From a virus: a stretch of DNA of 20,326 bases. The translations under genes were made by a program, and so were the position numbers. The notes below the pieces were generated by a model, which saw nothing but the letters and a program-made list of their open reading frames with translations, ran no database searches and was not told the origin of the DNA. The stretch's first letter is position 1; each line of letters starts with the position of its first letter. The stretch lies in the IMG/VR virus record IMGVR_UViG_3300023196_001783, positions 1 through 20,326 of that record; one strand, written 5' to 3'. Below are positions 1-16,401 of this stretch, piece by piece.

Positions 1-860
1 ACACTGGTGCACAGGGAACTCAGGGCTTCCAAGGCACGCAGGGTTTCCAAGGCGACAAAGGAATGATATGGGACGGCGCGTGGGTAATCTCCACGGTGTA
101 TGCGCTGGATGAAGTCGTCAGCAATGATGGCGCATCGTACATCTGTAAGCTGGGACACACAGCCGCTGCCGGAGACGAGCCGGGAGTGGGCGGGTCGTGG
201 ACAACGTATTGGGATTTGGTGGCTGACAAAGGCGATCAAGGCTTCCAAGGCACGCAGGGTGATCAGGGCGATCAGGGATTCCAAGGCTTCCAAGGTACTC
301 AAGGCTTCCAAGGTACTCAAGGCTTCCAAGGCACATCTGGTGCTGCGGACTTCTCATTTAATATTGAGGACGACGACACCACAGTAGTTACCGTGGATAA
401 CGCGGAGGAAGTGAAGTTCACTTCGGGTTTAGGCCTTGATGTTGACTGGACGGATACCACCGGCCCGAACTATGTGATGACGTGGAACCTTGACCTGAAT
501 GAACTTTCTGCGTCAGGCACGTTGATCAGTACGGATGACCTTGTGGTGGTTGACGGCACGCTGACACGCAAGACGCAGATCAGTACCATCCCGTTGAGCA
601 TCTTCAACAACAATTCCAACTGGAACAACTACTCCTACACCGTGTCGGAGATAACCGGCCAGACTGCCCTCACGTCGGGGCTGGCGGACACCGATGAATT
701 ACAACTGTCAGACGGTGGCGTATTGAAACGCATGGACATGTCCGTGGTGTTTGATTACATCGACCCGAAGATCACACAGATCGACGGCACGAAAGTTACT
801 GTCGCCAGTTCGGCACCGGGTTCCCCGTCCACGGGTGACCTTTGGATTGATACCAGCTAA
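1..860 (+). CDS. Collagen-like tail fibre protein, 5' partial
   Basis: The gene enters from the left edge: the frame is open from the first full codon at base 3, so the Met at 63 is internal. Seen in order: a Gly-X-Gln collagen-like stretch (3-62); a Trp/Tyr-rich module of about 50 residues (63-225, from WDGAW to YWDLVA); a second collagen-like stretch (about 229-340) made of GFQGTQ and GDQ units; then a beta-rich C-terminal part of about 170 residues ending in GSPSTGDLWIDTS. Collagen-like GXY repeats are typical of trimeric phage tail fibres, and the WxGxW...Y module resembles the small carbohydrate-binding-like inserts found in such fibres. I infer a trimeric host-recognition fibre or fibre tip. 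The stop overlaps the next start in TAATG, so the genes are probably translationally coupled. The exact receptor role is not visible. Confidence 0.85.
   Translation, partial: TGAQGTQGFQGTQGFQGDKGMIWDGAWVISTVYALDEVVSNDGASYICKLGHTAAAGDEPGVGGSWTTYWDLVADKGDQGFQGTQGDQGDQGFQGFQGTQGFQGTQGFQGTSGAADFSFNIEDDDTTVVTVDNAEEVKFTSGLGLDVDWTDTTGPNYVMTWNLDLNELSASGTLISTDDLVVVDGTLTRKTQISTIPLSIFNNNSNWNNYSYTVSEITGQTALTSGLADTDELQLSDGGVLKRMDMSVVFDYIDPKITQIDGTKVTVASSAPGSPSTGDLWIDTS
285..330. repeat. 18-bp tandem repeat in fibre gene
   Basis: The unit ggcttccaaggtactcaa occurs twice exactly (285-302 and 303-320), followed by a partial third copy. It encodes the hexapeptide GFQGTQ of the collagen-like stalk. Near-identical codons recur at 20-50 and 240-260, so the stalk probably grows and shrinks by slippage or recombination. 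Confidence 0.9.
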
Positions 861-1123
861 TGCGGTGCTTGGGCAACACTCCCGACCACTGTTGCTATCT
901 CGACAGTAAGCCGTGTCCACATCTGGAAGAGAATACCGTGGAAGGGCGACGTTGGGCGTGTGGCCTACGCAGGAAGCTGGGCAACTGGGACGACGTGTTG
1001 GAGTCAAAAGAGTACAAGGCCGACGTGTTGCCAGTGTTCGGGCCTATAGGTATCAACTGTAAGGATTGGCCGAAAGGCAAACACTGCGGCGAGTGTGGGT
1101 ACGGAGTAGAAAATGCCAGTTGA
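860..1123 (+). CDS. Small cysteine-rich protein of unknown function
   Basis: This 87-residue protein starts at the ATG that overlaps the stop of the upstream fibre gene (TAATG) and ends inside the next gene, so it is coupled on both sides. It has eight cysteines (residues 3, 11, 12, 19, 34, 67, 76, 79) in the pattern CCYL-x4-CPHLEE, ACGLR, INCKDW and CGECG. There is no signal peptide or membrane segment. The spaced Cys and the CxxC pair at 76-79 suggest metal binding (zinc, or possibly Fe-S), or disulfides if it is exposed on the virion. I recognise no named family. Its place inside a fibre cassette argues for a virion or fibre-assembly role, but this is inference. Spurious translation is unlikely given the tight overlaps on both sides and the structured Cys/Trp pattern. 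Confidence 0.7.
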   Translation: MRCLGNTPDHCCYLDSKPCPHLEENTVEGRRWACGLRRKLGNWDDVLESKEYKADVLPVFGPIGINCKDWPKGKHCGECGYGVENAS

Positions 1124-1715
1124 AAAACTTGTACCTTCAGCCAACGCCTCACCGGCCACAATACTCAACACCAATGATTACACGTTAATCAACGAAACTG
1201 TTGCGGCGGCTGATGCCTCTGTCAACGACAGTAATATCAACGACCAGACAGCTAACTCCGCCGCGTGGGCGTTGACCAATGTGGCGAGTCTAATTGATTC
1301 GGTTACTTCCGCCACGTTCCGCGTGCGTGCACGCATCAGCAGCATGACGGACGACGGCGCGACGTATCAATTCAGGTTGACGGTGAACGCTACGAACTAC
1401 GACATTACGTTTGTAGTCACGGGAGGTTCCGGGGACACCACGTACGCGGATAAGACGATTGCTGTAGGCACGGGATTTACCAAAGCACAATATGACGCGG
1501 CTACAGTTACACTGACACAAACATCCCATGCCAAGTCCATGGCTTCGGATAATTATTTCCTAGAGATAGATGCGTTTGAATTAGAGGTAGACTACACAGC
1601 AGTGGCAGGGTCGGCCACGTTCAAGTCAATGGACGGTGTGGCCGATTTAGACATTAAGTCGGTGACTGGGTTAGCGAGGGGCAGCATTAAGAACATTAAC
1701 GGAGTGGCGATCTAA
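1113..1715 (+). CDS. Beta-sandwich tail or fibre protein with C-terminal 11-residue repeats
   Basis: This 200-residue protein has an ATG inside the end of the cysteine-rich gene (11-bp overlap). Residues about 20-163 are Thr/Ala/Val-rich and beta-predicted. They run from a Trp (SAAWALTNV) through VRARISSMTDDGATYQFRL to a DAFELEVDYT strand, a layout like the jelly-roll or galactose-binding-like domains common in phage tail proteins. The last 30 residues are three copies of an 11-residue unit with core [FI]K[SN]x[DTN]G[VL]A: FKSMDGVADLD, IKSVTGLARGS and IKNINGVAI. The stop overlaps the next start (TAATG). Likely role: a fibre-associated or receptor-binding structural protein. There is no catalytic motif and I cannot give a named family. 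Confidence 0.75.
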   Translation: MPVEKLVPSANASPATILNTNDYTLINETVAAADASVNDSNINDQTANSAAWALTNVASLIDSVTSATFRVRARISSMTDDGATYQFRLTVNATNYDITFVVTGGSGDTTYADKTIAVGTGFTKAQYDAATVTLTQTSHAKSMASDNYFLEIDAFELEVDYTAVAGSATFKSMDGVADLDIKSVTGLARGSIKNINGVAI

Positions 1716-2859: not shown

Positions 2860-3663
2860 ATGAATAAATACGACGAACCTGTCAACCAGTGGCTGATAGA
2901 GCACTACGGTAGCTTCGGAAAGAATCTTGCCAGCAACTTGGCGAGTCTGACCGAGGAACACCGTAACTTCTGCGACAGGTATCTGGACACGGGCAATGTC
3001 ATGGAAGCTGCGCGAGACGCAGGCATCAAAGAGAAGTCGCCACAGCTTTTACTACACATCCCCAAGATTAGCGCGTACCTGAACATCTTGGCAGCCAAGC
3101 GAGAGGTAGACCTTGGCCGCGCCAGCACAGCAGAAATGCTGGACAGGATACGAGCCACCCCCATTGTGGCCAGTGACGATCAGCTACTGCCCCCGGAGAC
3201 GCTGGCAGAAATCAATGAGCAGCTTGCCGAGGACGGGTTGGGAGTAAGCAATGCGACTGACGACGAGTTGCTGGCAAACGCCGCACCCGACGGCGACATG
3301 GGCATAATGCAGGTTCCCCCTGTCACCATGCTACACAACACAGCCTTCGGCCCGGAGTGGGTACTGGAGCAGTTGGTGCGCGTCGCTGAACGCTGTCTAC
3401 AGATCGAACCCGTGTATGACAGGAAGGGTCGACCCATAGGGGAATTCAAATTTGAAGCCAATGCCGCGTTGAAATCGTTGGAGTTGGTGGGTAAGACCAT
3501 GGCCATGTTCAAGGAACGCGTGGAGTTGGGCGGCGCGGGTGGACTGGATAGTTTTGATTCAACACAGATCGACGAACGGATGGCGGCTCTGATTGAAAAG
3601 CATCCCAATTTAGCGAAAGGACTGGTACTTGAGCACACAACGAAATCAGATCGGAAACACTAG
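2860..3663 (+). CDS. terS: Terminase small subunit
   Basis: This 267-residue protein should be the DNA-recognition subunit of the packaging motor, binding concatemeric phage DNA and delivering it to the large subunit. Residues 30-57 (LTEEHRNFCDRYLDTGNVME then AARDAGIK) match the helix-turn-helix opening of the Terminase_2-like small subunits, in which a Y-L-x(2-4)-N-x(2)-x-A-A-x-x-A-G core is typical. Residues about 60-105 continue helically. The C-terminal third (ANAALKSLELVGKTMAMFKE, 208-227) is the helical segment common to longer TerS proteins. At 267 residues it is longer than many TerS proteins, with an acidic middle insert (about 105-150). The start at 2860 lacks a good Shine-Dalgarno sequence but is the first in-frame ATG. 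Its 3' end overlaps the large terminase by 35 bp, which fits the assignment. Confidence 0.85.
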   Translation: MNKYDEPVNQWLIEHYGSFGKNLASNLASLTEEHRNFCDRYLDTGNVMEAARDAGIKEKSPQLLLHIPKISAYLNILAAKREVDLGRASTAEMLDRIRATPIVASDDQLLPPETLAEINEQLAEDGLGVSNATDDELLANAAPDGDMGIMQVPPVTMLHNTAFGPEWVLEQLVRVAERCLQIEPVYDRKGRPIGEFKFEANAALKSLELVGKTMAMFKERVELGGAGGLDSFDSTQIDERMAALIEKHPNLAKGLVLEHTTKSDRKH

Positions 3664-5122
3664 CACCGGCGCAATTCCGATTCCCGAAGATTGGGAAGAC
3701 GCGAAACTAGAACTCTATCGTTTGATGGAGTTGAAAGCGCAGCGTGCACGCCTGCGCATGATCGACACCGTGTTCCCCGCTACCGGCCCCATAGCACGGG
3801 ACAAGTATTTCAAACACATGGACTTCTTGGCTGCGGGAGCAAACAACCGGGAGCGCGTAGTCTTTGGAGGTAACCGTTCAGGCAAGTCGTGGTTGGGAGG
3901 ATTCGAAACCACTCTGCATCTGACCGGCGAATACCCCGACTGGTGGAGAGGAAAGAGATTCAGTAAGCCCATCGTCGGTATCGCCTGCGGTAAGGACGGT
4001 AAGATTACGCGTGACTCCGTGCAGCGTATCCTGCTGGGTGACCGTAGTAGTTTTGGCACGGGGTTCATTCCCGGCAATCTACTTGACCGCAAACGCTGCA
4101 CCGCTTCACGCGCCGCGTCCGGGCTGTTCGATGAGGTGCCCGTTAAGCACGCGTCCGGCGGCTGGTCGTTACTGCGATTCAAGTCTTACGATCAGGGCCG
4201 CGAAGCGTTTGAAGCTACTGAATTGGATTGGGTGTGGGAGGATGAGGAAGCCCCGCTGGACATCCACAAAGAGAATCTAATGCGTACGATGACCACGCAC
4301 GGTTCCGTGATCAATTCCTTTACCCCCTTGAAGGGAGAGACGCCGCTTGTTGCCGACCTGTTGGACAGGGCAAGCAACGGTAGCGTGTACCAGTGCAAGA
4401 TATGGTGGGATGACTGTCCCCACCTAACAAAAGAAATGATCGACGATATGATGAAGCGGTACTCCGCGCATGAGATTCGCGCACGCCGCTATGGTGAACC
4501 TCAGTTGGGTGAGGGAGCCATCTACACCATTGACGAAAGCGAGTTGATGATACGCCCCATGGCCATACCAGAACATTGGCCCCGTGCGTTTGGCCTTGAC
4601 TTTGGCTGGACTCACCCCACTGCCGCCGTGTGGGGAGCATTGGACAGGGAAACCTCCACCGTCTACTTGTACTCAGAGCACCGGCGTGCCAAGGCAGAGC
4701 CAGCTATCCACGCAGCGGCTATTGCAGCGCGAGGTATCTGGATGCCGGGGGTATCGGAAACGGCTGGCACCAACATGTCGGACGGTAAACGAATGTTCGA
4801 CATATATAGGAAAACGCACGGCCTAAATCTCAAGAAGGCGGCCAAAGGGCCAGACACTGTTGAGTCCGGCATTATGCTGATGCAGGAAATGTTGGCCGAG
4901 GGGCGAATCAAAGTATTTGATTCCATGCGCATGTGGTTTGACGAGTATCGTTCTTATCACCGCAAAACCAACGGAGTTGTTCACAAGAAGAAGGATGATC
5001 TTATGGACGCCACACGTTACCTGATCACAGGAATACAAAAATACGCGAAGACCCACGCCGAAACCCGCATGCACGACGCACCGGGCAACGTGGTCGAACT
5101 TCGCTTCGGACGGAGCGCGTAA
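3629..5122 (+). CDS. terL: Terminase large subunit (ATPase-nuclease), TTG start
   Basis: This 497-residue packaging motor hydrolyses ATP to pump DNA through the portal and cuts the concatemer. Walker A is GGNRSGKS at residues 80-87. Walker B lies around DWVWEDEE (200-207) with its catalytic acidic cluster. A coupling-type SFTPLKG segment begins at 230. The nuclease domain opens with FGLDFGW (Asp324), the usual RNase H-like first metal ligand, and ends with KKDDLMDATRY (Asp456, Asp457, Asp460). I chose the TTG at 3629 because AAAGGA sits 7 bases upstream. The first in-frame ATG is codon 33, which would drop a predicted N-terminal helix. The start lies inside terS and the stop overlaps the portal start (TAATG), giving a tightly coupled packaging cassette. 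Confidence 0.96.
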   Translation: MSTQRNQIGNTSTGAIPIPEDWEDAKLELYRLMELKAQRARLRMIDTVFPATGPIARDKYFKHMDFLAAGANNRERVVFGGNRSGKSWLGGFETTLHLTGEYPDWWRGKRFSKPIVGIACGKDGKITRDSVQRILLGDRSSFGTGFIPGNLLDRKRCTASRAASGLFDEVPVKHASGGWSLLRFKSYDQGREAFEATELDWVWEDEEAPLDIHKENLMRTMTTHGSVINSFTPLKGETPLVADLLDRASNGSVYQCKIWWDDCPHLTKEMIDDMMKRYSAHEIRARRYGEPQLGEGAIYTIDESELMIRPMAIPEHWPRAFGLDFGWTHPTAAVWGALDRETSTVYLYSEHRRAKAEPAIHAAAIAARGIWMPGVSETAGTNMSDGKRMFDIYRKTHGLNLKKAAKGPDTVESGIMLMQEMLAEGRIKVFDSMRMWFDEYRSYHRKTNGVVHKKKDDLMDATRYLITGIQKYAKTHAETRMHDAPGNVVELRFGRSA

Positions 5123-14701: not shown

Positions 14702-15955
14702 ATGGCAGCAGATAATGGTGGTGGAGTAACCAGCCCCGGCGGCACATATTACCCTCCGGGCACAGCTTGGCCGGGTGGTACGCCCCCGTGGATTTTCGAC
14801 GAGACGGCCAACCAGCCCCCCGTCGACATTCAATATAATCCAGACGGCACACCCGTCGACCCGCCGCCTGCAGACCCACAGCAGGCGTACTCGCAAGCCA
14901 ACGCTACGCAGGGGATTGGCGACTTGGATATGTTTGGCAAGCGGTACAACATTGCCGCAGGCAGCGCGGAAGGCTTTGGCCGTGATGCACAGGGTAATGA
15001 AATGTCGGCGTGGCACCTACAGCAGATGCTGGACTCAAACAGTCCGCTCATGCGACAGGCTTCCGCGATGGGTCAGGCGCAGGCAGGCTCACGGGGCTTG
15101 ATGAATAGCAACATGGCCATCGGTGCCGCACACGGCAGCATGGTCAGTCATGCCCAACCGTTTGCCTTGCAAGGTGCTGATGCGCACATGCAGGCAGCAA
15201 GGGAATCGCTCGCCGCCAAGAACCAAGCGGAACTGAATAATTCTCAGTTGACGACGCAGGCTAACATTGCCGCTGGTCAGTTGACCGGCGCATTGGACAA
15301 CACAGCACTGCAGTTGCAGGGTCAGTCTCTGATGAATCAAGATCAGCGTAACTGGCAGACCGACGAGAGTGCGGCGCAACGTGACTGGCAGGGCGAAGAG
15401 AACCAAGAGAACCGCGACTGGACGTCAGCAGAGAACATCCGCTCCAACTCGTTGGCATGGGCACAGTCAGAACTGCAGGCATACGCCAGTATTGGTATGA
15501 ACCGAGAGCAGGCACGTGCACAGGTGTTGGCCGACATTTACGGCAACCCGAACCTCACAGCATCCGAGCAGCGTGCGGCAGCAGCCAACGCTAATCGCGT
15601 GTTCGACGACATGGAAGGCCAACCATGGAATCCGCCAGCAGGTTTGCCGCAGTACGACCCGCAGACTGGCGATATTACCCAATCACAACCCGCACCGGCA
15701 CCGCCGGATACAGGTGGTGGACGCGGCCCCGGCAACAGAGGGCCGGGTGACGGCGGCGACGAGTGGGGAGGTGACCCATACAACGGACGCGACAGTTTTG
15801 TGGGCGGCAGAGATTCTAAGAGTGGCCTGCCTCGCAACCAGTTATTGTCCGATCAGTATTACAGCGACCTGAACCAGCGGTTTGGTCAGAGTTATTCCAG
15901 TGTGGCTTATCCGAGTATGTCCACAACTATGGACGCATTGCCACCAGTATTATGA
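14702..15955 (+). CDS. Putative internal virion protein with hendecad repeats
   Basis: This 417-residue protein has a Gly/Pro-rich N-terminus (residues 1-60). It is followed by a helical Gln/Ala-rich region (about 90-280) and a Gly/Pro/Asp-rich tail with GGGRGPGNRGPGDGGDEWGG. In the helical part, Trp218, Trp229 and Trp240 are spaced 11 residues apart in QRNW, QRDW and NRDW contexts. This is the signature of a right-handed hendecad coiled coil. Such 11-residue helical repeats occur in ejected or internal virion proteins of podoviruses. The start uses AGGTGA overlapping the nozzle stop. The ATGA end is coupled to the acetyltransferase gene. I infer an ejection-apparatus subunit. No enzyme motif is visible. 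Confidence 0.65.
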   Translation: MAADNGGGVTSPGGTYYPPGTAWPGGTPPWIFDETANQPPVDIQYNPDGTPVDPPPADPQQAYSQANATQGIGDLDMFGKRYNIAAGSAEGFGRDAQGNEMSAWHLQQMLDSNSPLMRQASAMGQAQAGSRGLMNSNMAIGAAHGSMVSHAQPFALQGADAHMQAARESLAAKNQAELNNSQLTTQANIAAGQLTGALDNTALQLQGQSLMNQDQRNWQTDESAAQRDWQGEENQENRDWTSAENIRSNSLAWAQSELQAYASIGMNREQARAQVLADIYGNPNLTASEQRAAAANANRVFDDMEGQPWNPPAGLPQYDPQTGDITQSQPAPAPPDTGGGRGPGNRGPGDGGDEWGGDPYNGRDSFVGGRDSKSGLPRNQLLSDQYYSDLNQRFGQSYSSVAYPSMSTTMDALPPVL

Positions 15956-16401
15956 CCAAGGTTTACTGCGCCAGATACGAAGACGTGAATGACATCGTTG
16001 TCTTTGGAAAGAAATTCCACAAGGAGTCATCCGGGTGGGAGCGAGTACCGTTCGTGGTGGACACGTTTCGCAAGAACATCGTGTCGACAGTAAGGACGCA
16101 GGGGTACGACGTGTTGGTGGCAAGGGACGAAGGCAAGGTAGTGGGCTTCCTCATAGCCGCTACCGACCAGATGATCTTTGGCAAGACGCGGTACGCCACC
16201 GATGTACATTTTGTGGCCCACAAGGGTGGACTGCAGTTGATACGAGAGTTTGAGAAATGGGCACGCAACCATGCAGCAGCTTGCATGATCATGACTATCG
16301 CCACGTCTGACCCGGAAGGGCGGATAGAACGGTTTTATGAGGCCGCCGGATTGGAACGAATTGGCACGTCGTTCATCAAGTGGCTAGAACAGGAAGGTTA
16401 A
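15952..16401 (+). CDS. GNAT-family N-acetyltransferase
   Basis: This 149-residue protein has the GNAT layout. Strands lead to YDVLVARDEGKVVGFLIAAT (52-71). The acetyl-CoA loop region VHFVAHKGGLQLIREFEKWA (85-104) follows, with a degenerate loop (HKGG in place of the usual R-x-x-G-x-G/A). Then come MIMTIATSDPEG and the C-terminal motif ERFYEAAGLERIGTSFIKWL. It transfers an acetyl group from acetyl-CoA to an amine; the substrate is not readable from sequence. It is coupled to the upstream gene (ATGA). A GNAT in the ejection cluster could modify a virion or host protein after entry or during assembly; this is inference. The unusual loop should bind CoA but could also mean lowered activity. Confidence 0.86.
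   Translation: MTKVYCARYEDVNDIVVFGKKFHKESSGWERVPFVVDTFRKNIVSTVRTQGYDVLVARDEGKVVGFLIAATDQMIFGKTRYATDVHFVAHKGGLQLIREFEKWARNHAAACMIMTIATSDPEGRIERFYEAAGLERIGTSFIKWLEQEG

Follow-up and report, generated by a model that had tools for sequence, protein, structure and literature searches.

A conserved eight-cysteine protein gene paired with a jelly-roll protein gene in the fibre cassettes of uncultivated phages

Introduction

Several phage tail fibres depend on dedicated assembly proteins, such as T4 gp38 and gp57A and lambda Tfa, whose genes usually follow that of the fibre and which are not known to have conserved cysteines. These are products of small genes that lie beside a fibre gene and depend on it, and the gene described here is likewise small and fibre-adjacent; as judged from their descriptions, however, the known assembly proteins are set apart from it by gene order and by the lack of its cysteines.

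Two other systems are informative with regard to cysteines in the host-attachment apparatus. First, lambda gpL and the RcGTA hub protein are tail-tip proteins that each contain an Fe-S cluster (PMC7296036), and share with the putative attachment protein described here the presence of conserved cysteines; in gpL and the RcGTA hub, however, four cysteines hold one cluster inside a large hub protein, whereas the protein analysed here has eight cysteines, is a free-standing product of 87 residues and is linked to a fibre gene. No sequence match to these Fe-S proteins was found, and the hub architecture is absent. Secondly, in the Agrobacterium phage Milano, disulfides that sit in the sheath, baseplate, spike and fibre proteins crosslink the tail and the fibre attachment (PMC10811340). 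Disulfides thus have a structural role in the tail and in the attachment of the receptor-binding protein, and small proteins surround the spikes and fibres, although these small garland proteins are without cysteines, unlike the eight-cysteine protein (PMC10811340). No homologue was found in the collection of 50,697 phage records. Because of the disulfides of Milano (PMC10811340) and the Fe-S clusters of gpL and the RcGTA hub (PMC7296036), both disulfide bonding and metal binding by cysteines have precedent in phage tails, and an earlier statement, in a sequence-only reading of this DNA, that a metal-binding protein in a fibre cassette has no obvious textbook role needs to be qualified for the tail tip.

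Results and Discussion

The eight-cysteine gene and its relatives

The window, by which we mean the whole analysed stretch of 20,326 nucleotides of the IMG/VR virus record IMGVR_UViG_3300023196_001783, contains at 860–1123 on the plus strand a gene of 87 codons running from ATG to TGA. Its start codon (860–862) overlaps the TAA stop codon (858–860) of the preceding fibre gene in the sequence TAATG at 858–862, and the choice of start is backed by homologues that open with M-x-C or M-x-x-C. Cysteines occupy residues 3, 11, 12, 19, 34, 67, 76 and 79, exactly the positions given in the sequence-only reading, and the two motifs that it singled out, CCYL-x4-CPHLEE and CGECG, are present as described. 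The excess of cysteine over the neighbouring genes, also proposed there, is substantial: the other 18 genes of the window contain 36 cysteines in 6,181 residues (0.58%), and at this frequency the binomial probability of at least eight cysteines in 87 residues is 5e-8, or 3e-6 if the background is taken as 1%.

Relatives were identified in 58 IMG/VR records besides the window by four scans using the protein and its alignments and one using the domain encoded downstream; these searches depend on short conserved peptides, such that distant members without them are missed, and the records closest to the window are possibly absent from the set. All of the relatives are uncultivated viral contigs. 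In an alignment of 43 sequences, there is no variation at C3, H10, C11, C12, C19, R30, C34, W43 or V46, 42 of the 43 retain C67 and C76, and Trp32 and Trp70 are near-invariant. Exactly eight cysteines are present in 35 members and nine in the other eight, with none having fewer than eight. The last two are variably spaced (CxxC, CC, CxC or Cx4C), and in one member (L028) a C-terminal cysteine is absent and there is an extra one near the N-terminus. Comparisons of close pairs yield dN/dS values of 0.09–0.33. The sequence-only reading had named two outcomes that would speak against it, cysteines not conserved in homologues and a frame disrupted in close relatives; neither was found, since the cysteines are kept one by one across the alignment and the frame is intact and under purifying selection. 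The gene is present as a single copy in all 20 records searched whole with a profile, and what had looked like tandem copies in L013 and L015 proved on the same search to be artefacts of simple gene calling. We conclude that 860–1123 is a real and conserved gene.

An AlphaFold2 model of the protein, of middling confidence (pLDDT 76, pTM 0.69, weak beyond residue 70), shows a small fold in which two strands are accompanied by several short helices. Foldseek searches with this model returned nothing usable, the best E-values being 0.88 in the PDB and 3.7 in BFVD, which does not prove that the fold is new. Sequence searches gave no Pfam match for five members of the family, no NCBIfam match (best 0.15), no match in the PDB, and only isolated weak matches to PHROGs among the 43 members (best 0.005, in a single member). 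The motif HCCY is reminiscent of the HDCCY of secreted phospholipase A2, but the order differs and there is no Pfam match, and this likeness was rejected.

The family was also sought outside the uncultivated viruses. A tblastn search of the 50,697 phage records with the window protein and five diverse relatives gave only chance matches, and the end of the POA1180 fibre and BcepF1 gp66 were rejected as relatives as they are without the cysteine pattern. Two scans of 84,980 bacterial species returned two Curvibacter matches and nothing else; these were rejected because they lie in a long open reading frame antisense to other long frames and share 21 residues, and a profile run against 398 genomes from the phylum of Curvibacter found nothing. 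No member was found on plasmids, and a literature search of partial coverage found no description of the gene pair discussed below. The family thus appears so far to be known only from uncultivated viruses, and would define a previously unnamed family with no related curated one.

Pairing with a jelly-roll protein gene

The eight-cysteine gene lies within a cassette of fibre genes. To its left is a fibre gene (63–860, plus strand; the frame may begin left of the window) encoding collagen-like repeats and a stretch resembling CBM_5_12 (E 3e-5, just under the cut-off used), which is flanked by two collagen-repeat blocks. To its right, and overlapping it by 11 nucleotides, is the gene for a 200-residue protein (1113–1715, plus strand) with a jelly-roll, carbohydrate-binding-module-like domain at residues about 1–165; a candidate Shine-Dalgarno-like GGAG (1103–1106, plus strand) is located inside the eight-cysteine gene, 6 nucleotides before the partner ATG. 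These are followed on the same strand by genes for a collagen-repeat fibre protein (1715–2293) and a protein of 177 residues that is the last of the cassette (2290–2823), and then by the terminase small (2860–3663) and large (3629–5122) subunit genes. The tail-fibre setting proposed in the sequence-only reading is therefore well founded, with collagen and CBM-like neighbours on both sides and the terminase genes next.

The association with the partner gene is found throughout the family. Simple gene calls and all-against-all BLAST place one protein cluster directly downstream in most loci, and a profile of the N-terminal domain detects the jelly-roll after the eight-cysteine gene in 58 of 58 assessable records (of the 59 that carry the gene, L017 stops 81 nucleotides past it). 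Records that were not used in building the profile, which include L037, L047, L048, L050, L058, L060, L061, L063–L066 and L106, match the domain at E-values of 2e-16 or better. The domain begins with the next gene in 57 of the 58; the exception is L047, where it is located deeper within the same frame downstream. In that locus (L047:5533–6937) an apparent repeat insert of WVAVG...G units precedes the jelly-roll, placing the domain about 1 kb away with the pair kept. The two genes usually overlap, and the junctions between them range from −35 to +2 nucleotides, with +9 before the next open reading frame in L047. Four loci initially taken to be partner-less (L037 and L048–L050) were rejected as such, the partner being present in an overlapping frame.

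The converse also holds. A search with the jelly-roll domain as query found the eight-cysteine gene directly upstream in 19 of 20 loci, seven of which had escaped the earlier scans, and two further jelly-roll subtypes used as queries returned only loci already known to be paired. The sole exception among the 20 is a divergent jelly-roll copy (L067:2369–3204) with no eight-cysteine gene upstream. In the records assessed, the pairing of the eight-cysteine gene with a jelly-roll gene is obligate.

The two proteins have also diverged in parallel, with a Mantel correlation between their distances of 0.55 (maximum 0.25 in 2,000 permutations), although this may reflect only the shared ancestry of linked genes. 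The strict pairing, the frame overlap and the correlated divergence together suggest that the jelly-roll domain has the eight-cysteine protein as its direct partner.

The conserved 165 residues of the partner are predicted to form a jelly-roll (pLDDT 72), and had no sequence-family match at the cut-off used. The best structural match of the model is to the CBM16 domain 2zew (VIA-align Z 10.0, 128 aligned residues, rmsd 3.3), with which it shares just 12% identity; many other CBMs match as well, and among the Foldseek matches are also domains from phage tail tips and baseplates and lectin domains. The product of 1113–1715 is thus of CBM-like jelly-roll fold in a model of pLDDT 72, and sugar binding, as suggested by that fold, would be plausible, with the proviso that jelly-rolls of the CBM type are common. 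Beyond this domain the downstream proteins are highly variable, with matches between their distal parts in 15 of 435 pairs. A constant anchor joined to a variable distal part is how receptor-binding proteins are usually built.

The pair is kept amid changing surroundings. The window itself encodes a phrog_332 portal and a phrog_1357 capsid protein, whereas near the pair are a large terminase subunit and an SU10-like portal in L007, an HK97-type capsid (phrog_10) in L016 and a phrog_283 capsid in L026. The upstream neighbours across loci include collagen-repeat and phrog_644 proteins, and a 144-residue phrog_644-related protein is encoded ahead of the eight-cysteine gene in L006 (3131–3565), L007 (7567–8001) and other loci. 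The pair has the appearance of a receptor-binding cassette that is kept intact as its surroundings change. A metal-binding regulator or host modulator, lodged by chance in a late operon, would agree with the high content of cysteine and histidine, and host functions can be the target of small late proteins of phages; however, the eight-cysteine gene is tied to a single structural gene in each of the 58 assessable records, through different phage backgrounds, which argues against such a role, no zinc-finger family was matched, and we regard it as highly unlikely. More generally, zinc-binding families gave no match in Pfam or NCBIfam, and none in the PDB by sequence or by fold, the latter using the model of pLDDT 76 only. 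The host-modulating function that the sequence-only reading had allowed is likewise disfavoured by the exclusive linkage, while its other suggestions, an assembly factor or a fibre cap, are in line with the strict link to the gene that follows.

Proposed function of the eight-cysteine protein

It is very probable that the eight-cysteine and jelly-roll proteins act together in host attachment. Our preferred reading, to which we assign a probability of about 0.48, is that the former is a structural partner, an adaptor or clamp borne in the virion, of the jelly-roll protein encoded by the next gene. The eight-cysteine protein would be made first and would bind the conserved jelly-roll domain as the next product emerges; it would then stay in the particle, fixing the receptor-binding protein to the virion, such that the variable distal part of the fibre could meet the host surface. 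Its small fold would be stabilised by the eight cysteines, which would make up either four disulfides, formed after lysis, or two metal sites of four thiolates each.

A somewhat unlikely alternative is a chaperone dedicated to fibre assembly, which would fold or trimerise the downstream protein and be absent from the finished particle. The eight-cysteine gene is adjacent to and co-inherited with the fibre gene in 58 of 58 assessable records, and the overlapping frames, strict pairing and correlated divergence are all as in dedicated fibre chaperones, but known chaperones are usually encoded 3′ of the fibre gene and are not known to have a build of conserved cysteines. Moreover, the mean identity among the eight-cysteine proteins is 49%, compared to 27% for the partner domain, and because the small protein is more conserved than the domain that it would serve, we favour the adaptor over a chaperone that departs. 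A conservation above that of the partner domain may also point to a role of the eight-cysteine protein beyond holding the jelly-roll.

A further alternative is that the eight-cysteine protein is itself a distal tip, receptor-binding or enzymatic and either disulfide-rich or dependent on a metal, which the jelly-roll protein would display. The invariant His10, Arg30 and Trp43 and near-invariant Trp32 and Trp70 alongside the cysteines are in keeping with such a tip, as are the sugar-binding-like and collagen parts that make up the rest of the cassette. However, tips that contact the host normally diversify fast, whereas conservation of the eight-cysteine protein extends over very different phages, and no enzyme family was matched; we therefore consider a distal tip to be decidedly improbable.

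For the adaptor or clamp that we prefer, we slightly favour four disulfides over two metal sites, as a judgement, because the number of cysteines is nearly fixed at eight while the C-terminal spacing is variable; the CxxC, CC, CxC and Cx4C patterns of the last two would be no less suited to disulfides than to a tetrahedral metal site. A broader and improbable extension is that a cysteine-rich clamp of new fold and a CBM-like jelly-roll fibre constitute a two-gene attachment module moving between unrelated tailed phages, in which the cysteines would act as a lock under redox or metal control, with the fibre being set only when it is outside the cell or at the surface of the host. If the cysteines are so controlled, the pair would provide a testable case of fibre maturation that depends on conditions outside the host cell. 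The family would also serve as a marker for a single type of receptor-binding module in uncultivated phages that differ greatly in build, and would aid the search for host-attachment genes in metagenomes in which fibre proteins vary too much to be recognised.

Other genes in the window

Two further genes of the window, both on the plus strand, merit mention. A gene resembling GNAT acetyltransferases (15952–16401; E 0.001, below the cut-off) is located amid the virion genes. An open frame extending from 19002 to the end of the window has a start resembling lytic transglycosylases (AVIKQESGFDP...GAVGMMQLM), and on this sequence similarity its product is likely to be an internal virion protein that digests the cell wall.
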